48,057 bases of DNA from Caldilineaceae bacterium (GTDB taxonomy: Bacteria > Chloroflexota > Anaerolineae > Caldilineales > Caldilineaceae), in NCBI GenBank assembly GCA_020433455.1, contig JAGRCP010000027.1:1-48057 (forward strand). The letters run 5' to 3'. The notes below the pieces were generated by a model that saw only the letters and a program-made list of their open reading frames with translations, was not told where the DNA came from and ran no database searches. Position 1 is the stretch's first letter. Each line of letters opens with the position of its first letter. Position numbers and translations under genes: made by a program. Below, one piece after another: positions 7,832-21,312 of this stretch.

Positions 7832-8234
7832 GGGAGTGATTCCCCTCTCCGCAAATAATTTGGCCGAAAAGCGTTTGTCCGCTGCCCGGCGACAACACCT
7901 TCGCAACGAGACGGCACTACGATATGGTAGTATAGCGGCAGACGCCACGCGCAGACCAACACAACAAGCCGCGGACGCGGCCACGCCCGTGCATTCCGTA
8001 CGGGAACCTTTCCCATACGCTCCACGTAGTTGAATGCAGAAGGGTAGAACCGCACGCGCCTCGTCGGACGTTTACAGGGAGAACAAATAAACATTGGATA
8101 TTGCGGCAGGGACATGCGCCGTCGCGGCCGGCGGAATGCGCGCGGAGGGAGAACTTCCTCCGCTGCGCCTCATGTTCGTACGGTTTGTCCAAAAGCTATT
8201 TGGGCTCTCTGTCAGAAAAGTTATGGAGAATACG
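7832..8234. other. 403-bp divergent intergenic region, nothing recognised
   Basis: It lies between the divergently transcribed CYTH and DksA-like genes and should carry both promoters. No convincing -35/-10 pair, palindrome or RNA gene was identified. The frame of the DksA-like gene stays open upstream to about 8094, but without a Shine-Dalgarno site or family similarity. Confidence 0.5.
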
Positions 8235-8567
8235 ATGAGTACCAAGCTGGATTTGAAAAAAGTGCGAAGTCAGCTAATGGCCGGCCGTAAGGAATTGCTG
8301 GCAAAGCTGGAGGAAAAAGACCGGGATGCCCGGGGCGAAAATCCCGGCCGGGGCGATCTCGCCTATGACTACACCAACCGGGACCGGGTCACCGCCCTGC
8401 GCAGCGTAGAAGAACAGACGCTTGAGCAGATCGATGCGGCGCTTGAGCGGCTGGATGCCGGCACGTACGGCATATGCAGCCATTGCGGCAAGCCCATCAA
8501 TGAGGAACGCATGGAGGCGCTGCCGTATGCCACCCTTTGCATGGAATGCACCAACCAACAGGCGTAA
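8235..8567 (+). CDS. DksA/TraR-type C4 zinc-finger protein
   Basis: 110 aa. The N-terminal ~70 residues are highly charged and predicted helical/coiled coil. The C-terminal zinc finger is CSHCGKPI ... CMEC, the DksA/TraR pattern, with INEERMEALPYATLC between. Such proteins insert into the RNA polymerase secondary channel or act as general stress regulators; Chloroflexota and Firmicute versions (YteA/YocK-like) are not fully characterised. The start was placed at the second of two in-frame ATGs because GGAG lies 6 nt before it. A hairpin at 8802-8836 may terminate its transcript. Confidence 0.88.
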   Translation: MSTKLDLKKVRSQLMAGRKELLAKLEEKDRDARGENPGRGDLAYDYTNRDRVTALRSVEEQTLEQIDAALERLDAGTYGICSHCGKPINEERMEALPYATLCMECTNQQA

Positions 8568-9128: not shown

Positions 9129-9221
9129 TCGGATCCACGAAGTAGACGAGATCTTGCAGTAGAAGTATGCAGTGATCCTTACTGCCGTCGCTGCCGCAAT
9201 ACCCAAGTCTGCTAACGTCAT

Positions 9222-9258
9222 AAAGGGGCCGGATTAAATCCGGTCCCTTTATTTTTTT
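9222..9258 (+). terminator. Rho-independent terminator after csp
   Basis: AAAGGGGCCGGATT (9222-9235) pairs with the segment ending TCCCTTT (9250), including one G-U pair, and is followed by ATTTTTTT. A textbook intrinsic terminator about 95 nt past the csp stop codon. Confidence 0.92.
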
Positions 9259-9694: not shown

Positions 9695-12595
9695 TCACAC
9701 TTGGTCCCCGCAGGCTTCAAACTCAGCCCGATACCGCTGCATGCAGCCCAGATCGTCCAGCCCCAGACCGTGGACGGTTCGGACAAAGGTAATGGAAAAA
9801 GGCGCCTGACTGGGCAAAAGCGCCAGGCTATACTCCTGAAGCAGGGTGCGACTCAAGTCCGTGTCGGCTGCGCCTGAGGCACTCACAAAATCGACGGCCA
9901 CGCCATAGACGGCCAGGCGATCCGAAACGTCATAATTGGCCGTGGGCTTGGCCCGATTCCAGGCATTTTCGATGTAATAGCGGCGGGGAAAGGCCTGCAC
10001 GTTGGCCGTCAGCGCGGCTCGTCCGGGAGCCGCCTCCAGCACGCGCAACTGCTGCTGCAGGGCCTCCTCCTCTTCCCGGCTGCGCCACAGCATATGTTCA
10101 ATGGTGTACTCTTTGGCCAGGGTGCGGATCAGTTCGGCCCGGGCCGGCTCGGCTCGCCCCAGGCTCACGGGCGCGACGGAACGGCGCACGGTGCGGCGGA
10201 TCAGCTCGGCCAGGGTGCGGGGCTGATTCGGGCGGGCGCGTTCTTCCCGTCCGCCCGCGGCGGCAGAACGCATGATGCGGGCCACATCTCGTCGCCATGC
10301 TTCATCGCCCCACAGATTGTCCAGCCGCACCTCGTTGCTGTCGCCGCGCTCATCCTGCTGGCCGCGCAGATAGGTCAGGCAATCCTCCCACAATTGCCGG
10401 CTCAAATAGGGTTGGTAGAGATGGGTCGGGCGGACGTCAGGCGGCGGCGCAACGGGCATGACCGGCGGCGCGGCCAGGGAGTGGAGTTCCTCATGCGCGT
10501 CGTCCAGCATGGTTTGCCAATCGCGCAGAAGCCCGTTGAGCTGACGCACCATGCGCAGCAGGCCATCGGCAGCCGCTTCCCGCAGAGCCTGGGTGACGGC
10601 ATCGGTCGCGAGCGCAAGCCGCCGCCGGCGCAGCTGCTGAATCTGCGCCGCCCCCCGCCGGAAGCCAAAGAACGCGGCCAGCAACACGCCCGTGGCAAAA
10701 CCGGCTAAAGCCAGGCCGTCGCGCCGCAGGTCCCACGCTGCATCCGTCAGGGCCAGATAGCCCCAGGCAAGCAGCGCCACCAGCGCAATCACGCCCGCGG
10801 CGCGCAACAGCATTGGCCCCGGGGCAGACTTGGAGACAGCGGCCGCGTCATACTCGCTGCGCCAAGTATCCAGCGCCACCTGCCGACGCACGTCATCCAG
10901 CTCCCGGCGGCTGGGCGTAGCGGAGAGAGAAAGGGATTGCTCCATCTGCTCGGCTTCGGCGCGCCAATGCTCCATCTGGATACGAGCGGCCGAAAGGCCC
11001 GCAGGCGATGCCGCGACCAGATCCACAAGCTGCTGATCCAGGTTGCGCACCAGCGCAGGAAAGATGCGCGTATCCGCGGCCCAACCGCCTCCGCGAATCG
11101 TCCACTCGCCGGCATCCAGCCCCCAGGCTTCACTGACCGCGTCCGGGCCGACAGCCAATTCCTGATATCGCTGCAACCCGGCAACGTGATCGGAAAAGCC
11201 GTCGGGCCACGCGCGGATGCTCTGGCGGCGCAGGGCTGAGGCCGCGCTGTCGGACAGGACGAAATCCGGATTGGCGCGCAGATCGCTGATGCGCTGGTGC
11301 GCGGCGGCGGCAAACAGATCGGGCAGGCGCGCGACCAACCCGCTGAGCGCGGGCCCTTCTTCCAGCCCCAACTCATGCAAAGTTTGGCGGCGGGGCGTAC
11401 GCCGGGTCATGGCGCGCAGGAGGGGGTTTGCGGGCGTCGCGTCATCGGGCGTGCTGCGCAGCACCCACTCGCGCACCAGGCGGCTCTCTTCCTGGCGATG
11501 GACCGCATGGAGCACCTGCTCCACAGGCACATAGTCAGTGGCCGCGCCCAACAAGCTGTAGGGCCGGGCTTCGCCCGCGTGCAGGCCAATACCCAACTGC
11601 TCCTGAATGTGAAAATTGCCGCCGGAGACGACGTGCGCTTCCAACGCGTTGGCGGCCAAAATGGCGACCTCATGACTGTCATCGGCCAGCCCCTGGTTGC
11701 TCTTCTCCCGATCGAGGAGATAAATGTAGTCGAAGAGGGGCGTCCCCGTTGCACTGAGCAAATCCGGATTGTGGGTGCGAATAAGGTTCTCTAACGCCGC
11801 ACCGTCCGCGCCGCTTGATCCGCCCTGATAACCGCTGAGGATCTCCAAGTCGCGCAGCGCGGCATAGGTAGCCGCATCTTCGCGGCTGCGGCTCAGGTCA
11901 CGGGCGTAGCTGCCCGTGGCGAAAAGGGCCACAACCTGGGCGATATGCTGGCGTCCGCTGCGGGCCAACAGCCGCCCCACAAGCGGCCAAATCAGCGCCG
12001 ACGTCAGCGGCTCAAAAAGAGGCGCGACGACATACAGCGTCGTCTGCACGAATGGATCGTCAGGATCCAGGCTGTCGTGACGAATGGGGTCAAGGAGATG
12101 CGTCTCCAACAGCCGCGCCACGGGATCCGCATAATGCAGTCCAGCCGCGAACAGCTCCCGGCGTACGGGCAGCCGCGCCTCATCCAGCCGCGCCAGACGA
12201 AAATCGGCCTCGCCAAAGCCCAGCGTCTCCATGTAGGGACGCACGGTGTCCAGCAGGAGAAGCGCGCGCCGCTCCGAGGCCGTCAGCTCAAAGGGCAGTC
12301 GTCGGCCCGCGCCCAACGCCCCCAGAGTACGCTCCACAAAGTAGGGCGGCAGCGTCAGATCCGCGCCGGGACGAAACAGCTCAAAGCGGACCTGGCCTTC
12401 CTCTGTGCGCAGGGGATCGGCGACCAGCGCGCCAAAACTGGTCACATCGTGGAGATTCGGACCCAGCGCGCCCAACGCGCTTCGCTGCTCCTGGAGCGCC
12501 TGAAGACGCGGCAGCAGGTGAAACATAACCTGAAGACCCCAACCGCCGAAGCAGAGTATCGCTGCACGACCTTGGGTATAGTTGGCTCTCATCAT
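9695..12595 (-). CDS. Membrane protein with degenerate tubulin-like N-terminal domain
   Basis: 966 aa, not a named family. By eye, residues 1-~420 parallel the 847-aa tubulin-like protein encoded just upstream: AILCFGGWGLQ matches its VVGVGGMGTN glycine loop, LYVVAPLFEPLTSA matches YVVSSLCGGTGSG, YAALRDLEIL matches YAALKELNYF, and FDYIYLLDRE matches FDFIYLVSRT. The GGTGSG nucleotide-binding signature is lost, so GTP binding is doubtful. Two membrane helices lie near residues ~600-622 and ~632-650, followed by an Arg-rich, probably coiled-coil C-terminal part. It is the third gene after vWA and tubulin-like, 74 nt downstream of the latter. A membrane adaptor for the tubulin-like polymer is inferred. 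Confidence 0.72.
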   Translation of the reverse strand: MMRANYTQGRAAILCFGGWGLQVMFHLLPRLQALQEQRSALGALGPNLHDVTSFGALVADPLRTEEGQVRFELFRPGADLTLPPYFVERTLGALGAGRRLPFELTASERRALLLLDTVRPYMETLGFGEADFRLARLDEARLPVRRELFAAGLHYADPVARLLETHLLDPIRHDSLDPDDPFVQTTLYVVAPLFEPLTSALIWPLVGRLLARSGRQHIAQVVALFATGSYARDLSRSREDAATYAALRDLEILSGYQGGSSGADGAALENLIRTHNPDLLSATGTPLFDYIYLLDREKSNQGLADDSHEVAILAANALEAHVVSGGNFHIQEQLGIGLHAGEARPYSLLGAATDYVPVEQVLHAVHRQEESRLVREWVLRSTPDDATPANPLLRAMTRRTPRRQTLHELGLEEGPALSGLVARLPDLFAAAAHQRISDLRANPDFVLSDSAASALRRQSIRAWPDGFSDHVAGLQRYQELAVGPDAVSEAWGLDAGEWTIRGGGWAADTRIFPALVRNLDQQLVDLVAASPAGLSAARIQMEHWRAEAEQMEQSLSLSATPSRRELDDVRRQVALDTWRSEYDAAAVSKSAPGPMLLRAAGVIALVALLAWGYLALTDAAWDLRRDGLALAGFATGVLLAAFFGFRRGAAQIQQLRRRRLALATDAVTQALREAAADGLLRMVRQLNGLLRDWQTMLDDAHEELHSLAAPPVMPVAPPPDVRPTHLYQPYLSRQLWEDCLTYLRGQQDERGDSNEVRLDNLWGDEAWRRDVARIMRSAAAGGREERARPNQPRTLAELIRRTVRRSVAPVSLGRAEPARAELIRTLAKEYTIEHMLWRSREEEEALQQQLRVLEAAPGRAALTANVQAFPRRYYIENAWNRAKPTANYDVSDRLAVYGVAVDFVSASGAADTDLSRTLLQEYSLALLPSQAPFSITFVRTVHGLGLDDLGCMQRYRAEFEACGDQV

Positions 12596-12669: not shown

Positions 12670-15213
12670 TCATACTTGTGAAGGGTTGATTAACTGCTCA
12701 TCCGCCTCGGGCGTAATTTCAGGCAAGCCAACCCACGCCGGATTGAGATGGAATTCGGCGCGGATGGGAAAGTCCATGCTGTTCTCATACTGGGCGCGGT
12801 AATCCTCCAGCCGCTCCAGAAGCGTCACCGGCAGGCCATGGACAATCCAGACGGCATCCATACGCGTGGGATCGCCCGTCGGGATCCACTTGAAGTCCTC
12901 CTGCCCCACGGTGGCTGCGGTGAGGCGAGGATCATCCCGCCGACTGGTGGGCGCGGCCGCCAGTCGGATATGCTCCAGATTCGTCTCATGGAAGCTGAAG
13001 CGGTCCGCGTCCCAACGGATGTAGGGATTGAGGCGGTCCAGCCATTGGTGGATGCGGTTGTCGGGCCGCTGGCGGGCCCGGGCCACTTCCTGGCCGTGCT
13101 GTTCGCCGATCACGTGATTCACGTCCACCGACCGATCAACCCGCTGGAGCAGGTCGCCGTTGCCTGCGATGTCGCCGGCCAGGCGGGCATAGAGCTGTTC
13201 CGCGCCGATAACGTCCGTGGACTGGATCAGGTGCGCATAGAGGGGCTCCAGCGCGCGCTGCCAATCCGCGGCAGTCACCACGGCCCCCGCCCGGCGGTAG
13301 AAATCCTGAAGATAGTCCCGCCCGACCACGCCCGTCTCCAGCTCGTAGTAGGTGCTGGTGCTGGGATAACCGTCAGGCGTACGCGGGTCGATGCGATCCG
13401 CCAGGCGGCCGGCCTCCTGATTGGCGCGCGCCAGGGCCAGGGCGCATGCGCCCACCTGCCCGGCCAGCACATCGCGCAAGAGCGCAGCGCGCTTGCCCAA
13501 CTGCTCCACCAGGACGCGCTCCACCAAATCCCGCCGCTGGTAGATGCGCGCCCGCGCGCGGCGTGAGGCCGAGTCGCCGGCCCGCTCCCGGGCCCGACGG
13601 GGGTTGAAAGCCATCATGAGCATATCGCCGAAACTGGAGCTGACCTGGCGGGCCTGCTCGGCCAGACCGCCCTCCTGGGCCAACACCTTGCGCCAGCGCT
13701 CCCGGTCCTCTTCCGTAACGGGCCGCCCGTTGAGGAGGAAGAGACGCTGGCGCGGCAGGGCTGCGGCCCCGGCCGCGCCGGGATTGGCCGGCCCAAGCAA
13801 GTCGCAAATAGCCTGCGCTCCCCGAATGCCCGTATCGGTCAGAGCCTGTTGCAGCGTGGCCTGAACGGGCGACCAGAAGCTGTACCAAGCGCCCGTCTGG
13901 CCTTCGATTTCAGCCGCGATCTCCTCCAATCGGTCATTGTCCAGCGCTGCATAGCGGCTTACCAACTGGGCCAGCAATCCCTGCCACAAGCTGTTTACCC
14001 GCTGCTGATCGGCCTCGGGCATGGGGCCGCGCGGATCGGTGAGAGATGGTCCGGCGGCAAAGCGGCGCACCAGATCGGCCGTAAAGGCCCGCTGCCAAAA
14101 CTCGGTCAGCGACTCGTGGGGGGCGACCAGCGCGGACGCGGCAAAGCCCGAATAGACCAGGAAGTGACCGCGCCGATGACCCAGGCCGTCGCCCGCGCCG
14201 TTTTCATCCGAAAGCGCCGCGCCGGGAAAAGAAGGCGGCTGCATGCCCGTGACTTCGCCTGCCGCGCCGTTCAGGTCATAAAGACGCTCACGCACGACGT
14301 TCACTTCCAGGCCCAGGATTTCGCTGCTCAGGTGGCTGATGGCCGTGAGCTGGATGAGGTGCGCGGCCATCTGCTCGGCGTCGGACTTGCGAGCCAGGCT
14401 GTTGCCGTTGCGGTTGGTGCGGCTCACCAGGTAGATGAAGTCGAAGGGCGCATAGGGCGTATCGGGCAGTTCCCGCTGCTCGCTGGGATAAAGAGCCTTG
14501 AACTGCTGGGTCTCCTGAAAATAGTTGAGTTCCTTGAGCGCAGCATAGGCATTGGCCCGGATACGCCGGCGCTGAATATCGCTGGAGATTTCCGGCTCCA
14601 GTACGTCGGGCAGGAAGAAAATGCCCACGACGCGCCCGTTGTTGCGCACCGCGGCGCGGATGCGGTGAACCGTATCCATGAACATGCCCGACCCCGTCCC
14701 GCCGCAGAGGCTGCTCACCACGTAGATGAGTTGATAATTGCCCACCACAGGAAAGCCCCGATTCTGGGCCGCTTCCATGTCGCGTATCTTATCCAGACCG
14801 GCCAGCTTGGTCTCCAGCAACTGCTTGAAGGTGACGTAGTTGCGGAAAAAGGAAAGGCGGCCAATGGGACGCAGCTGCTTGGCCCCGTTATGGATGTAGC
14901 CCAGAGGAATAGAGGGGTAGTTCCACCAGCGGGCAATTTCCGGATGCTGGTCCAGATTGGCCACCAGGCGCGTGGCGTCAAATTTGCCCATGTAAGCGAA
15001 CTCATCGGCAAAAAGGGGCTCCTGATCCAGCCGGTTGACCAGCGGTTCGGTGTCCAGCGCCAGGAGCTGAATCATGCCGGGCAGCTGATCGCCGCCCCAC
15101 ACATTGCGCAGACGGCGCTTCACCGCGCGCACGGTATTGGTCCCCATGCCGCCCACGCCCACGACCATGGTCGGGTAGATGGTGGGCTTTTCAAAATGGT
15201 TGTTTGAAGTCAT
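12670..15213 (-). CDS. Large tubulin-like GTPase (Tubulin_2-type)
   Basis: 847 aa versus ~350-450 for FtsZ or tubulin. The N-terminal glycine loop is VGVGGMGTNTVRAV (~residues 17-31), and the tubulin signature appears as SLCGGTGSGMF (~167-177), followed by a helix and strand typical of the GTPase domain. The remaining ~450 residues are a family-specific extension without recognised motifs. It resembles the Pfam 'Tubulin-like' group rather than cell-division FtsZ. ATG at 15213 is chosen because AAGGA lies 6 nt before it; the open extension upstream runs back into the vWA gene. It is co-transcribed between a vWA receptor-like gene and a membrane pseudo-tubulin gene. Nucleotide-driven polymerisation at the membrane is inferred. 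Confidence 0.82.
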   Translation of the reverse strand: MTSNNHFEKPTIYPTMVVGVGGMGTNTVRAVKRRLRNVWGGDQLPGMIQLLALDTEPLVNRLDQEPLFADEFAYMGKFDATRLVANLDQHPEIARWWNYPSIPLGYIHNGAKQLRPIGRLSFFRNYVTFKQLLETKLAGLDKIRDMEAAQNRGFPVVGNYQLIYVVSSLCGGTGSGMFMDTVHRIRAAVRNNGRVVGIFFLPDVLEPEISSDIQRRRIRANAYAALKELNYFQETQQFKALYPSEQRELPDTPYAPFDFIYLVSRTNRNGNSLARKSDAEQMAAHLIQLTAISHLSSEILGLEVNVVRERLYDLNGAAGEVTGMQPPSFPGAALSDENGAGDGLGHRRGHFLVYSGFAASALVAPHESLTEFWQRAFTADLVRRFAAGPSLTDPRGPMPEADQQRVNSLWQGLLAQLVSRYAALDNDRLEEIAAEIEGQTGAWYSFWSPVQATLQQALTDTGIRGAQAICDLLGPANPGAAGAAALPRQRLFLLNGRPVTEEDRERWRKVLAQEGGLAEQARQVSSSFGDMLMMAFNPRRARERAGDSASRRARARIYQRRDLVERVLVEQLGKRAALLRDVLAGQVGACALALARANQEAGRLADRIDPRTPDGYPSTSTYYELETGVVGRDYLQDFYRRAGAVVTAADWQRALEPLYAHLIQSTDVIGAEQLYARLAGDIAGNGDLLQRVDRSVDVNHVIGEQHGQEVARARQRPDNRIHQWLDRLNPYIRWDADRFSFHETNLEHIRLAAAPTSRRDDPRLTAATVGQEDFKWIPTGDPTRMDAVWIVHGLPVTLLERLEDYRAQYENSMDFPIRAEFHLNPAWVGLPEITPEADEQLINPSQV

Positions 15214-15289: not shown

Positions 15290-18200
15290 TTACCAACCCT
15301 GCGACCAGGGATCGCCCGGCGCGCGGTCTGTGGCAGGCGGGGCGGACGTTTCGTCCGCCGGCTCGCCGGCCCAGGGCGCGCCCCATTCCGACCGGCCCCA
15401 GACGGCATCCTGAGCCGGTGCGCTCACGGGCGTAAAGGAGCGGGCTGCCGCCCGATCCGAGGCCGGAGACGCGGCCTGGGCGGCAAACTCCGCAGCCGCC
15501 ATTTGGCGCGTGGCGGCCATGGCAGCCTCTTCTACGGCGTCTTCATCAAAGTCACGTCCCCGCAAGCGTGCGGTCAGCAACAAAAGCAGCAAAAGCGTCA
15601 GCGGCACGGTGAGCAGCGCCCAGGGCAGTGTATAAACCGGTACGAAAACAGGCGCCAAATAACGCTGGACGGTATTGGGGCTACGGAAGGTCAAATCCAC
15701 CGGCTGCACCTGCTCCAGCCCGGCAACGCGCAGGCCCAGCGTCCCGGCATAGACGCTCCCCCGCAGCGGATCGAAGGGAATGGCCCGCCGTGCAGTAAAG
15801 GTGAGCGGTACGGCGTAGAGGCCATTCTCATCCGGCGCGCCGGTGACTTCCACCGCGCTCATGGCAACGTCCTCGTCGCTGACGGCGATGCCCTGTTCGC
15901 CGCTGCCCGCGGCCTGCAAGTCCGCCATCTCCACGATGAACGGCGTCTTGCCCGTGAAGCGCAGGCGCAAAATCGCGTCGGCCTCTTCACCGGGACGCTG
16001 AAGATTGCCCAGGCGCAGGGTGGGATCCACCGCCGCCCACTCCACCGCGCTGACCCGAGTACGCCAGGAAATCTCGGTCGGCGTGACGTCGTAATCCCCG
16101 TTGGGCCCGGACAGCGCAATCCGCCCGGAGCAGGTCCCGGCCGGGACGGGTTGGCTGCTGCTGAGGCGTAAAGGCAAGACATCCTGCCCGGCCTGACGCC
16201 GCAGCTCGTCCGGCGTGATGATGATATCCGGGCATGAATTATCCGCCATCTCAACATGCAAGGCAAAAGGATCGCCGCTGAACGCTACGGGCAGGAGCGC
16301 CTCCTGACTCAGGCGGAAGTTGGGCGACGTATCAAAGAGGGTTTCGCCGAAGTCCAGCGCTTCAGCATTGATGATGACGGCGGGGCGGGCAACGTCCAAC
16401 GTCACCGGCAGGGCGGCTCCGGGCCGAATCTCCACATTCATGGGCAGGCCGCTGGGCGTAAAGGTTTGCAGGGTCAACGTGCCCGTATACGCGCCGGGAC
16501 GCAGATCATCCAGGCCGTCTATGCGCAGAGAGGTAGCCAGGCTGCCCGTCTCGGGCACGTCCTCGTTGAACTGCACGCTGACGCCCTCTACCGGCGTGGT
16601 GACGGCGGGGTCATCATCATCCGCCCGGGCCAGAGTCACCGTAGCCTGGATGGAACCGATCTCTTCCGTCGCGCCCGACGCCAGTTCGATGGGCCAGCCG
16701 TCGGCAGGCATCCGGGCCAGGTCCAGCTCGCCGGGCAGGCCGCGCAGATAGACCGCAGGGGCCAGTTGGGTCTCGCTCTGGGCCCAATCGCTGAAGCGCA
16801 GGCCCTCTTTCACCGCCTCCAGCACAAACGTATAGCGATAGGCGCGACCGTCTTCAGGCGTAAAGCCGTCGTCGCGACAGAGGCGATTGGCGCACTGCAT
16901 GATCGCCTGATAGACCAATGCGCCGTTCCGGGCATCGTCCGTCGTGTCGCTGACGAAGACCGTGCCCGCGACATCGCTGATGGCGTCATCGCCCTGAAAG
17001 CCCGCCTGCAGCTGCTGACGCCCGTCTTCCAGCAGGCCGGGAGCCGCGACGGTGGGCGAAATGGCCCGGACCAAAGGCAGGTCCGCCCGGGCCTCAAGCT
17101 GGAATGTGCGCACCAGTTGCAGCGGTTCAGCGTCATCGCCCAGCTGCAGGCGCACCGCGCCCGGCTCTTCATTGAGGGCCAACGCACGGACGCCGTCATC
17201 GCCAAAGGGCTGGAGGACGGAGCCGTCATTGTAGGTGATGGGCTCGGCTGCGCCCGGTCCCGCGCCCCGGGCCATAAGCAGAGGCGGCTTGCCCGCAGGA
17301 TAGTAGCGCACGGATGCGGGGCTATCCGCAATGCTGGGCGGCGGATTAAGCAATTGGGGATAACTGGCAGCCTGGACGACGGCAAAGCCGCCCTGGTCGC
17401 CCGTGTCGGCCTGCCAGCGGCCGGCCGTGAGCTGAGCTTGCTCTACAGCGCTGACGGTAATGTTGGCATCGTCCGTCAAGGTGCGGGCCAACATGGACTG
17501 TTCGTCACGCTGGAGGTTCAGCAGGGCGCTGCTGGGTGTGATCAGGGTCAGGCTCTGCGCGCCGTGGGCGGCGCGGATGGAAAGTTGCAGCGCGCCGCTG
17601 CCGGCCGCGCCGATAACCGAGCGATCCGGCTTCATATCGGCCACGATGGCGCTGAAAAGCTGGAGCAATTCGGGAGCCGAGTTGGCCTCGCGCACGCCGA
17701 AATCGGCAAATTCCTCGCGCAAAAAATCCCCGGCGCAGCCTGCGGTAGGGTTACAAAGCACCACGGGAAAAATCAGCACGCCCGCCGCGTTGAGCGCGGC
17801 GATCTGCTCGCGCACGCGGGCAGTCTGGTTGATGACGCCGGATTGGGCGCTGGGTTCGCCGTCGGTGAGCAAGAGAACGTACTGGCTGCGGCCGGGCGTA
17901 CGGCCTGCGTCCAACAGGCGAATGGCCTCGTCCAGGCCCAGGTCGATGCGGGTATAGCCGCGCTGAAAGTAATCGTCAGGCGCTTGCAGGGTAGCGGACA
18001 ACGCGCGCCGATTCTCATCGCTGCCGACGGGCGTCAATTCGCCCAGCGCGCCGACGCCCTGGGCTGCGCTATCGAAGCGCACCACGGCCACCCGGTCATC
18101 AGCGTCGGCCAGCTCCAACAGAAGACGGGCCGCACTGTAACGCAGGCCGGCCGGATCGCTGGGCAGATTGGGACTGGCTCCGCCGCAGGGAGGATTGAAA

Positions 18201-18445
18201 GGAGGGCCGTCCTGGGGCCAGGGCCAGCAGGTCGCCATACTGCCCGAATCGTCCAGCAGCACCACCACGTCCAAAGCCTGATCTGCGCTGTCCCGCGTGA
18301 CCGCGGGCTGGGTTGCCTGGCCCACAGGCGCGGCCGACAACGGACGGGGTATAAGCAGGGCAAGAATCACGCCCAGCAGGGCGAGCAACCGATAAAATGG
18401 AACCGGCGCATTTCTCATGCGCCGGCCGAAAAAGAGATCTTTCAC
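15290..18445 (-). CDS. Membrane-anchored von Willebrand factor A domain protein
   Basis: 1051 aa. An N-terminal signal peptide or anchor (~residues 15-38) precedes a vWA domain (~55-260) with an intact metal-ion-dependent adhesion site: DDSGSM, the Thr of GYTRIDLG, and LLTDGEPS. About 650 residues of beta-rich extracellular sequence follow, then a single membrane helix near ~935-960 and an ~85-residue acidic/Ala-rich cytoplasmic tail ending DPWSQGW. The topology suggests an external sensor or adhesin whose tail could contact the tubulin-like protein. The start is GTG with AAGGA 12 nt upstream; an ATG eight codons later (MRNAP) is an alternative. It is the first gene of the three-gene tubulin-like operon. 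Confidence 0.85.
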   Translation of the reverse strand: MKDLFFGRRMRNAPVPFYRLLALLGVILALLIPRPLSAAPVGQATQPAVTRDSADQALDVVVLLDDSGSMATCWPWPQDGPPFNPPCGGASPNLPSDPAGLRYSAARLLLELADADDRVAVVRFDSAAQGVGALGELTPVGSDENRRALSATLQAPDDYFQRGYTRIDLGLDEAIRLLDAGRTPGRSQYVLLLTDGEPSAQSGVINQTARVREQIAALNAAGVLIFPVVLCNPTAGCAGDFLREEFADFGVREANSAPELLQLFSAIVADMKPDRSVIGAAGSGALQLSIRAAHGAQSLTLITPSSALLNLQRDEQSMLARTLTDDANITVSAVEQAQLTAGRWQADTGDQGGFAVVQAASYPQLLNPPPSIADSPASVRYYPAGKPPLLMARGAGPGAAEPITYNDGSVLQPFGDDGVRALALNEEPGAVRLQLGDDAEPLQLVRTFQLEARADLPLVRAISPTVAAPGLLEDGRQQLQAGFQGDDAISDVAGTVFVSDTTDDARNGALVYQAIMQCANRLCRDDGFTPEDGRAYRYTFVLEAVKEGLRFSDWAQSETQLAPAVYLRGLPGELDLARMPADGWPIELASGATEEIGSIQATVTLARADDDDPAVTTPVEGVSVQFNEDVPETGSLATSLRIDGLDDLRPGAYTGTLTLQTFTPSGLPMNVEIRPGAALPVTLDVARPAVIINAEALDFGETLFDTSPNFRLSQEALLPVAFSGDPFALHVEMADNSCPDIIITPDELRRQAGQDVLPLRLSSSQPVPAGTCSGRIALSGPNGDYDVTPTEISWRTRVSAVEWAAVDPTLRLGNLQRPGEEADAILRLRFTGKTPFIVEMADLQAAGSGEQGIAVSDEDVAMSAVEVTGAPDENGLYAVPLTFTARRAIPFDPLRGSVYAGTLGLRVAGLEQVQPVDLTFRSPNTVQRYLAPVFVPVYTLPWALLTVPLTLLLLLLLTARLRGRDFDEDAVEEAAMAATRQMAAAEFAAQAASPASDRAAARSFTPVSAPAQDAVWGRSEWGAPWAGEPADETSAPPATDRAPGDPWSQGW

Positions 18446-18570: not shown

Positions 18571-19269
18571 CTACAGCAGAGGAATCGGCTCGCCCAGCAC
18601 GGGAGCGGGCGCGCGTCGCACCACATCAAAGAGCGCCATGACCAGCGCAGGCAGTTCCCGGGATTCGGACCAGGCCACGGAGCGGGGATCGTAGGGACGG
18701 CGGTCGGCGATGACGCCCACGGCATCGATTCCCAGCGCGCGGCAGGTGAAGAGCGCACGGGGCAAATGAAATTCCTGGGTCACCAACACAGCGGCATCAA
18801 GCTGAAACACGTGCCGGGCCCGGTAGCAGGTATCGTAGGTGCGACGGCCGCCGTAATCGGGCTGGAGGTCCTCGAGCGGAACGCCCTGAGCCGCGGCATA
18901 AGCCAGCATGGCGCCGGGCTCATCATACTCCAGCGTCTGATTGTCCCCGCTGAGGAGCAGCTTATCGACTTTCCCGGCCTTGTAGAGAGCGATGGCCGTA
19001 TCCACCCGATCGCGCAACATTCCGCTCAGGCGACCGCCGGCATAGACTCGTGCGCCATACACCACCGCGACCCGGGCATGGGCTTCCTGGGTCAGCGCCG
19101 TATCCAGGGCATAGATGTGCCGGCTGTAACGCTGATCCACCCAGGCGCGCCAAAGGTAGGGAAAGGCAATCAGCGCGGCGACAAGCCCCAGCGCAAGCAG
19201 GCTAAGCCAGGCCGGTCGTCGGAAAAAGCGTGGCGATCCAAAAGCGGGTGAAGAGAGTGTACGGGTCAT
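18571..19269 (-). CDS. SanA/YdcF-like membrane protein (DUF218)
   Basis: 232 aa. One N-terminal membrane helix ([20 protein letters not shown]) precedes a DUF218 domain. Family motifs are [21 protein letters not shown], the LLLSGDN loop, RTYDTCYRA and [10 protein letters not shown]. SanA/YdcF/ElyC relatives act at the cell envelope and are linked to lipid-carrier or peptidoglycan metabolism and barrier function; the activity here is unproven. The start was set at MTRTLSS; an upstream ATG at 19317 is possible, and neither has a strong Shine-Dalgarno site. It precedes the vWA operon on the same strand. Confidence 0.85.
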
Positions 19270-19545
19270 AAAGTGATCAGGGATTTTGCGGACTCCATGT
19301 GGTCCGTTTTCTGCCATCCATTATCTGCAATACGCAAATCATTGCTGTTTCGTTCCCTACATTCTCAACGAACCGAAGACCCGGATTGCGCCGCTCCAGA
19401 AAATCAAACTATGATTTTTGTGATTGCGTGATGAACTATGATTGCGCCATCGGCAGATCAGGCCCCTTAACATCCCCGGCATGAAACACGCCCGCGTATC
19501 CGCCTTATTTGACAGCGCCGACATCCACGCCCATACTGTACGCCC

Positions 19546-21312
19546 ATGAACGATGATCCCAACCGGCAAGACAACTCCCCTCCCCGACAAACCGATCCTT
19601 CCGCCTATTTTCGTCGAGGGCGGGAAAGCCGGGAAGAAGACGATCCGTGGGCGGACGACGCTGCATGGGCGGGCGATGAGGCCGGACCCCTGCTGGACGG
19701 TGAGGCGCTGTTCGTCGAGGAAACCGCATTCGCCTTCACAGACGCCTGGGATGCGGACAGGCGCGCTCTCCTCTTGGACATTCAGGATCAATACGACGAC
19801 ATCATCATTGCCGGTCTGCAGGCCGATCGCCTGGCCGTAGAGCCGGGCGAAGCCGCGACGTACCAGGTTCACGTCCTCAACAACGGCCCCATTCAGGCTG
19901 TCTTTCACGTGCGCGTGGAAGGTTGGCTGGACGAACGCTGGATTACCATCGCGCCCGTAAGTGCGACGCTGGAGCCGGGGCAGCGCGCCACGCTGGAGGT
20001 GGTCATCATGCCCGAGCGGGCGTCAACCAGCCGCGCGGGAGAACATGCTCTGGCCATCGTCACCCGCTCGCCCAATTACCCGGGCCGACGCAGCGCGCTG
20101 GCCGCGACGCTGGTCATCGCGCCGTTTATGGAGATCATTGCCGGCGTTCTGCATCCCGGCCGCACGAGCGTAGGCTGGAACCGCCGGGCCAGGCCCAGCC
20201 GGCTCCCCATCATCAACCGCAGTAATTCCCCCGCCACCATTCGAGTCAGCGGGCAGGAGATCACCCGTTCCTGTCGTTTTGAGTTCGCGCTGCCCAATAT
20301 GGGGCGATGGCAGGCGGACGAGCTGGAAATGACGCTGGAGGCGGGAGAAACAGGATCCGTGCAGGTGCGGGTTACGCCCAGCCGGCCGCGGCTCTTTGGC
20401 CTGAGCCGGGAGCTATTCCCTTATCGAATTATGGTCCGCCCTCAGGATGAGACCCATGCGCCCCAGTCCGTTCCCGGCCGGGTGGAGAATCGTCCGCTCA
20501 TCGGCGTGTGGCACCTGGTCGCGACGCTGGCCCTGGCCGCGGGGGCGCTCATGCTGGCGCTGCTGGTGGGAATGGGCAGCGCACTCTTGTGGCAGAGCGC
20601 GCGCATGACCCGGCCCAGCGTCCCCACGCCGATTCCTGCGCCCCAATCAGCGCCGCCGATTATCGCCATCATGCTCAATAACAGCCCGCCCACCTCACAG
20701 CCGGAGATGACGCCCGCGCCTGTCGTCGACGCGCCGGTAACGGGTGATGCGCCCATCGTCCAGGCCGATCAGGTCTCGGCTCCGAACCCGGGAGCACCCG
20801 AAGCGCCGGGCAACGAATTGCCGGTCACGCGTGTGGCCCCTCCCCTGCCCAGCGGCGGCGGCCTGTCCGCTGCGCCCGACGCCGGCCTGACCTACGGCGA
20901 GATGTTCCGGATGGTGGCGCTTCAATATGATCTGGATTGGCGCATGTTGGCGGCCCAGGCCTACATTGAGAGCAACTTCAACACCCTGGCTCTGGGTGCG
21001 GACGGCGATCTGGGCCTCATGCAGATATTGCCCGGCACGTGGAGAGAATGGTCGCCGGCCGTGGGCGTTGACGACCCCTTCGACGCGTACAGCAACACGC
21101 TGGTGGCTGCGGCCTACCTGGACCACTTGCGCACCGTTTTTGCGGCCCGGGGCCTAAACGACTCGGGCTGGATGTTGGTGGCCTACAATTGGGGGCCGGA
21201 TAAGGTAATCGCCCATTTGGAATCCGGGCAGGGCTGGGAACAGCTTGCATCGGCCCGCCGCCGCTACGCCGAGCGCATCCTGGAAATCGCCAACAACATC
21301 GCGTTGGAATGA
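19546..21312 (+). CDS. Membrane-anchored lytic transglycosylase with N-terminal beta-sandwich region
   Basis: 588 aa, no signal peptide. Residues 1-~75 are acidic and disordered. Residues ~80-310 look like two Ig-like beta-sandwich repeats (EPGEAATYQVHVLNNG, then LEAGETGSVQVRV). A single membrane helix is at ~322-350, followed by a Pro-rich linker (~355-450) and a C-terminal SLT domain (~455-588). The SLT motifs are AYIESNFN with the catalytic Glu, DGDLGLMQILPGTW, and LVAYNWGP. The predicted topology puts the beta-sandwiches in the cytoplasm and the peptidoglycan-cleaving domain outside. It is transcribed divergently from SanA-like and vWA/tubulin-like genes, suggesting a wall-remodelling context. 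Confidence 0.87.
   Translation: MNDDPNRQDNSPPRQTDPSAYFRRGRESREEDDPWADDAAWAGDEAGPLLDGEALFVEETAFAFTDAWDADRRALLLDIQDQYDDIIIAGLQADRLAVEPGEAATYQVHVLNNGPIQAVFHVRVEGWLDERWITIAPVSATLEPGQRATLEVVIMPERASTSRAGEHALAIVTRSPNYPGRRSALAATLVIAPFMEIIAGVLHPGRTSVGWNRRARPSRLPIINRSNSPATIRVSGQEITRSCRFEFALPNMGRWQADELEMTLEAGETGSVQVRVTPSRPRLFGLSRELFPYRIMVRPQDETHAPQSVPGRVENRPLIGVWHLVATLALAAGALMLALLVGMGSALLWQSARMTRPSVPTPIPAPQSAPPIIAIMLNNSPPTSQPEMTPAPVVDAPVTGDAPIVQADQVSAPNPGAPEAPGNELPVTRVAPPLPSGGGLSAAPDAGLTYGEMFRMVALQYDLDWRMLAAQAYIESNFNTLALGADGDLGLMQILPGTWREWSPAVGVDDPFDAYSNTLVAAAYLDHLRTVFAARGLNDSGWMLVAYNWGPDKVIAHLESGQGWEQLASARRRYAERILEIANNIALE

Follow-up and report, generated by a model that had tools for sequence, protein, structure and literature searches.

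The 966-residue protein encoded at positions 9695-12595 of the minus strand (hereinafter F966) is well supported as a member of the tubulin superfamily and as a diverged paralogue of the tubulin-like protein encoded beside it (hereinafter TUB). Its anchoring in the membrane is, from sequence, likewise well supported. We assign a probability of about 60% to the reading that F966 is a membrane-embedded pseudo-tubulin, which would dock soluble TUB onto the membrane beside a vWA protein encoded in the same cassette. The window, namely the whole stretch of 48,057 nucleotides analysed, makes up one of the 172 contigs of a 5.25-Mb genome. The original prediction, which described F966 as a degenerate tubulin-like protein fused to a membrane anchor and produced by tandem duplication of its neighbour, is partly supported overall.

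F966 is the third gene of the cassette, which lies on the minus strand; its open reading frame is real and starts with ATG at 12595. The vWA gene (15290-18445, start codon uncertain) encodes a protein of ~1051 aa that matches Pfam VWA at E=8.3e-7. According to its sequence and a TM scan, the protein contains an N-terminal signal/TM segment, an extracytoplasmic vWA domain with the MIDAS motif DDSGSM (18236-18253), a single C-terminal TM segment (residues 939-957), and a disordered-looking, low-complexity cytosolic tail. The tail ends with the DPWxSxW-like peptide DPWSQGW (15293-15313), which is conserved within the family, and a further family-conserved Trp-rich motif (WG..EWG) is found in the tail-encoding region (15293-15600). 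TUB (12670-15213) is a soluble Tubulin_2/FtsZl1 protein of 847 aa with no TM segment. As originally proposed, it is tubulin-like, matching Pfam Tubulin_2 at E=9.8e-60 (203 bits against PF13809, above the curated cut-off of 27). Its start was placed at 15213, with AAGGA directly upstream and in agreement with the starts of orthologues; a longer open reading frame starting at 15408 was rejected, as that start lies inside the vWA gene. TUB has the T1 loop GVGGMG (15142-15159), the GTP loop T4 with sequence CGGTGSG (14686-14706), and the T7-like motif NVVRER (14284-14301; compare NVDFAD of FtsZ and NVDLTE of tubulin). The genome contains one Tubulin_2 gene above the cut-off and a separate canonical FtsZ-type gene.

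Four short motif correspondences between F966 and TUB had been picked out by eye. All four are real, and BLASTP aligns the two proteins at E=2e-6 across F966 residues 161-354. A second segment, missed in the original prediction, aligns at the C-terminus (residues 880-964, E=0.001). When both profiles include orthologues from several families, hhalign matches F966 to TUB in the N-domain (P=96.8%, E=2.2e-10) and at the C-terminus (P=92.3%, E=5.4e-7). These E-values refer to single comparisons, and the weight is carried by shuffle and reversal controls. Specifically, the N-domain score is 82.8, whereas the highest of 60 column shuffles reaches 26.3 and reversed profiles reach 15.5; the C-terminal score is 56.5, compared with 21.1 and 16.6, respectively. 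Chance similarity is ruled out by these controls. An initial hhalign comparison reached 15.9% only, because both alignments were shallow; inclusion of orthologues from other families solved this. The paralogy defined by profile-profile comparison thus spans the N-terminal ~380 and the C-terminal ~110 residues of F966, so that the N-terminal likeness described originally is joined by a C-terminal one. Individually, 18 of 22 F966 orthologues match Pfam Tubulin_2, the best at E=3e-4 and below the curated cut-off, and F966 itself scores 14 bits, under the cut-off of 27. A PDB sequence search with the F966 and TUB profiles detected no relatives, and a search of a viral library gave no match.

The structure of F966 was predicted with AlphaFold2 from the 22-sequence alignment (pLDDT 75.5, pTM 0.65). 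Foldseek placed tubulin at the top of its matches at E=5.6e-3, which is not significant alone, with nothing below 1e-3. A second look with VIA-align was decisive for the fold match: the model aligns with CetZ at Z 18.2 (282 residues, 3.5 Å), with tubulins at Z 16-17, and with FtsZ at Z about 16, giving F966 the predicted tubulin fold that the original prediction had called for. The matches run from model residue 8 to residues 944-966, towards the end of the CetZ, tubulin, and FtsZ folds.

The order of secondary-structure elements assigned by DSSP on the model suggests a tubulin fold that is broken between H9 and S8 by a helical insert. Specifically, residues 8-380 (11456-12574) form a predicted nucleotide-binding-type domain with S7-like (346-355) and H9-like (358-378) elements at its end, followed by the long helices of an insert of ~515 residues (381-895; 9911-11455). 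Past the long helices, elements at 903-908, 916-921, 924-928, 934-944, and 950-961 resemble S8-H10-S9-S10-H11, and residues 896-966 (9698-9910), which carry the motif RTVHGL..YRAE common to the TUB C-terminus, are predicted to complete the fold. The assignment is one of element order and aligned ranges, rather than of residue-level structural alignment. Mean column identity is 0.69 for residues 8-380, 0.54 for residues 381-895, and 0.68 for residues 896-966; the lower conservation of the insert agrees with an interrupted fold. The corresponding model of TUB is poor (pLDDT 52.7) because its alignment is too uniform, and its best match, gamma-tubulin at Z 10.0, was not relied on.

The insert contains a membrane hairpin, formed by residues 599-617 and 627-645 (10661-10801). 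The two membrane helices of the original prediction are therefore present, but they are not an addition downstream of the tubulin-like part: they lie inside the predicted fold, and the chain then returns to strands. One or two central TM segments were found in 22/22 F966 orthologues and in none of 20 TUBs. K/R residues are few in the short loop of the hairpin and abundant in the flanks of the hairpin, which is a positive-inside pattern. Both halves of the F966 fold are accordingly predicted on the cytoplasmic side of the membrane, as an interrupted fold would require.

The GTP-binding machinery of F966 has largely degenerated. The lost T4 loop (11996-12037) reads LYVVAPLFEPLTSA, compared with YVVSSLCGGTGSG in TUB. 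At this position the partners have FEPLTSA, GEPRTSA, AEDLASA, SDLVGSA, and similar sequences, and no aligned partner has the GGGTG(S/T)G signature, while every TUB of the same cassettes has CGGTG[SA]G. At the T6 position (REKSNQ, 11693-11710), RTN of TUB is replaced by REK, and nothing in F966 corresponds to the T7-like motif (D)VN[IV]xxER of TUB. All aligned F966 orthologues lack T4, the T6 asparagine, and T7, which bears out the claim that the GTP signature was erased. Other than that, the T1-like glycine loop CFGGWGLQ (12530-12553) is retained, with G17-G18-W19-G20-L21-Q22 invariant in 22 orthologues. Because GGWG is kept, some residual nucleotide or ligand binding by F966 is possible. The proposed evolution into a pseudo-enzyme thus agrees with motif loss in an intact, selected gene, and F966 may be called a putative pseudo-enzyme at the motif level only.

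The cassette is conserved as a unit. The order vWA-TUB-F966 is consecutive throughout Caldilineaceae wherever the contig allows and is kept in at least seven families. TUB and F966 co-occur perfectly, with both in 37/46 genomes and neither in 9/46; as the genomes are related, these are not 37 independent events. The closest named relative is a Chloroflexi MAG, with 58% identity in F966. A single-query search with F966 gave chance-level matches only among 301 genomes of the phylum; the alignment profile later succeeded, detecting F966 in 39/396 genomes of the class, in seven families. In the other families, wherever the contig extends far enough, F966 lies beside a vWA gene and a TUB with intact T4. 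In pairwise comparisons, F966 has dN/dS values of 0.10-0.21 and TUB of 0.03-0.09, and the rate of F966 exceeds that of TUB some two- to fivefold in most pairs. F966 is a functional gene under purifying selection, evolving faster than TUB.

A tree of 54 sequences groups 18 F966-type proteins, drawn from seven or more families, in one clade (support 99/97), and places TUB of the window with the other TUBs. The duplication is therefore ancient and older than these families, and a recent local tandem duplication, as the original prediction had it, is ruled out by the tree. One branch has all degenerate partners on the same side, but its support is just 46/52, and they may have one or several origins in the phylum.

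Outside the F966-type clade, the gene after Tubulin_2 in many Chloroflexota loci encodes 700-1180 aa with a TM segment or hairpin in the middle. The partner at locus L136 passes the Tubulin_2 cut-off alone (61.6 bits), lacks T4, contains the TM hairpin, and matches the F966 profile at 44.4, compared with 19.7 for shuffled profiles. Since it matches both Tubulin_2 and the F966 profile, it is an intermediate. By sequence, the tubulin similarity of the L136 and L137 partners is firm. That of L153-type partners is marginal (hhalign 29.8 compared with 20.1 shuffled, and weak Pfam or HMM matches) and was not counted as established, and that of the L142, L147, L149, and L144 partners is suggestive at best; the TM scan found no TM segment in the L142 and L144 partners. 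The degenerate partner at L182:1191-4481(-), in G682, has an N-terminal TM segment in place of the central hairpin, suggesting that tethering, rather than the insert itself, is what is kept. At L145:7299-17840(+), one 3513-aa open reading frame contains Tubulin_2, TM, vWA, propeller repeats, TMs, and a second, degenerate Tubulin_2 domain with T4 AGGMSG. A relative, L181, has the same degenerate domain in a 2263-aa open reading frame and the first domain in separate ones, a split that may be an assembly or frame error.

Trios of vWA, tubulin-like, and hypothetical genes also lie beside brxL, helicase, and RecQ-type genes on Allomeiothermus and Thermus plasmids (L167:7129-16221 and L170:7167-15126). 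The third gene of these trios has no detectable tubulin similarity, so its identification as a dead tubulin is unsupported, and the Thermus protein is also without a TM segment. PADLOC anti-phage models gave chance-level matches only to the cassette proteins and these trios, and an anti-phage identity of the cassette was rejected. The tubulin-like protein of Deinococcus radiophilus (L169:8740-11250(+)) has GGTCSG instead of GGTGSG at T4.

In the reading that we prefer, F966 would bind GTP-competent soluble TUB longitudinally, as tubulin-fold subunits bind each other, and would hold it in place on the cytoplasmic membrane next to the vWA protein, in the form of a heterodimer or a short filament. 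The cytosolic tail of the vWA protein, with its conserved C-terminal Trp peptide, may dock on the TUB/F966 pair. Because F966 is without T7, no GTP hydrolysis would be triggered in TUB bound to that face, and because it is without T4, it would carry no exchangeable GTP; lacking both, it would serve as a stable anchor or nucleating end that does not hydrolyse GTP. The vWA domain might then sense an extracellular event to which GTP turnover by TUB is coupled. Polymer formation, TUB docking, and the tether role of F966 are steps that we infer. Homology, fold, motif loss, anchor, gene unit, selection, and the 3513-aa fusion argue for the preferred reading as a whole, while the kept T1 loop, the distant partners without TM segments, and the third gene in Thermus argue against it.

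The main rival makes F966 an integral part of a fixed transmembrane complex with vWA and TUB for signalling or transport. No polymer would form, TUB would be a GTP switch, and F966 its pseudo-GTPase docking partner. A role in transport or signalling was proposed by a reviewer in the text of the 2010 FtsZl1 paper (PMC2875224). The vWA protein, with its signal sequence, single TM segment, MIDAS, and conserved tail peptide, would suit such a complex, as would the three-in-one fusion, for which free polymer growth is less natural. TUB, however, retains T4 and the T7-like motif, that is, both faces of the tubulin longitudinal contact, and we consider a fixed complex rather unlikely. TUB and F966 might instead be alternating subunits of a heteropolymer bound to the membrane, in the manner of alpha- and beta-tubulin, with F966 as the non-exchangeable one. 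They are indeed full-length paralogues, paired and co-inherited, but alpha-tubulin keeps bound GTP and a catalytic T7, while F966 has neither T4 nor T7 and evolves, in most pairs, at roughly two to five times the rate of TUB, which makes alternation decidedly improbable. That F966 is unrelated to tubulin, its likeness being chance or a general Rossmann-like resemblance, would fit the single-sequence Pfam match under the cut-off, the Foldseek E-values above 1e-3, and the 15.9% of shallow profiles, but is hardly credible given the independent evidence from sequence and from fold, the shuffle and reversal controls, the C-terminal homology, the Z 16-18 matches to tubulin, FtsZ, and CetZ, and the intermediate partner at L136.

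The FtsZl1 family (Pfam Tubulin_2, PF13809) and its link to vWA genes were defined by Makarova and Koonin in 2010, the text of which proposes a membrane-remodelling function and leaves the T6-H7 region and the C-terminal domain unplaced (PMC2875224). A 2023 family survey, in its main text, set Tubulin_2 proteins aside (PMC9871819). FtsZl1 has since 2010 counted as a most divergent branch of the tubulin superfamily, without an established function or a clear fold beyond its first half. A degenerate paralogue as the FtsZl1 partner is not found in the main text of PMC2875224 or PMC9871819, and we found no description of a degenerate membrane-anchored tubulin paralogue in the open literature, supplements aside, which does not prove priority. 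TUB is a member of this family, with an operon shared with a vWA protein and a long coiled-coil or helical region past the N-domain. F966 differs by its membrane helices, by the absence of the family-defining GGGTG(S/T)G, and by a score under the Pfam cut-off.

Like the FtsZ tethers FtsA, ZipA, and SepF, F966 is proposed to hold a tubulin-fold protein at the membrane; unlike them, it looks like a dead copy of the very protein that it would tether. To our knowledge, neither FtsA nor ZipA is a tubulin paralogue. Nor is SepF, according to a study of this FtsZ membrane tether (PMC8178401). F966 has the same predicted fold as alpha/beta tubulin, BtubA/BtubB, and CetZ, and alpha/beta tubulin and BtubAB are also paired paralogues. 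These proteins are soluble and have kept nucleotide binding, whereas F966 has lost T4, the T6 asparagine, and T7, is membrane-embedded, and has the ~515-residue insert. Gamma-tubulin, a paralogue that serves as a fixed end or nucleator, provides a working analogy for the mechanism proposed for F966; it is soluble and GTP-binding, unlike F966.

The neighbour gene in many Chloroflexota loci thus gains an identity as a degenerate, membrane-anchored tubulin paralogue, and the missing second half of the FtsZl1 fold may sit at the far C-terminus, past the long insert. TUB and F966 are a concrete pair for co-expression. An integral-membrane tubulin relative that is a dead copy of its own partner would, if true, be unusual in the superfamily. 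More tentatively, and with more doubt than confidence, we envisage a widespread three-part bacterial machine, in which a GTP-driven tubulin-like subunit or filament on the cytoplasmic face would be under the joint control of an extracytoplasmic vWA protein, acting as sensor or adhesin, and of a pseudo-tubulin embedded in the membrane with its fold interrupted. Such a machine would be a transmembrane tubulin system with a dead paralogue of its own as the anchor.

Several features flank the cassette. A SanA/DUF218-type gene (18571-19317, minus strand) lies directly upstream of the vWA gene in the window, and its linkage to the cassette was not seen to be conserved. In several relatives, the vWA gene is preceded by one of double thioredoxin/DsbA type (Thioredoxin_4; L037:691-2253, L039:17210-18784, also L046, L048, and L050); the window has none there. 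A divergent gene (19546-21312, plus strand) encodes an Ig-like domain, a TM segment, and a lytic transglycosylase (SLT) domain, and is preceded by a promoter-like TTGACA-17-CATACT at 19509-19537. On the other side, a strong terminator-like hairpin of 15 pairs followed by a T-run (9220-9252, plus strand) sits between the cassette and a gene at 8094-8567 that is DksA-like by eye.
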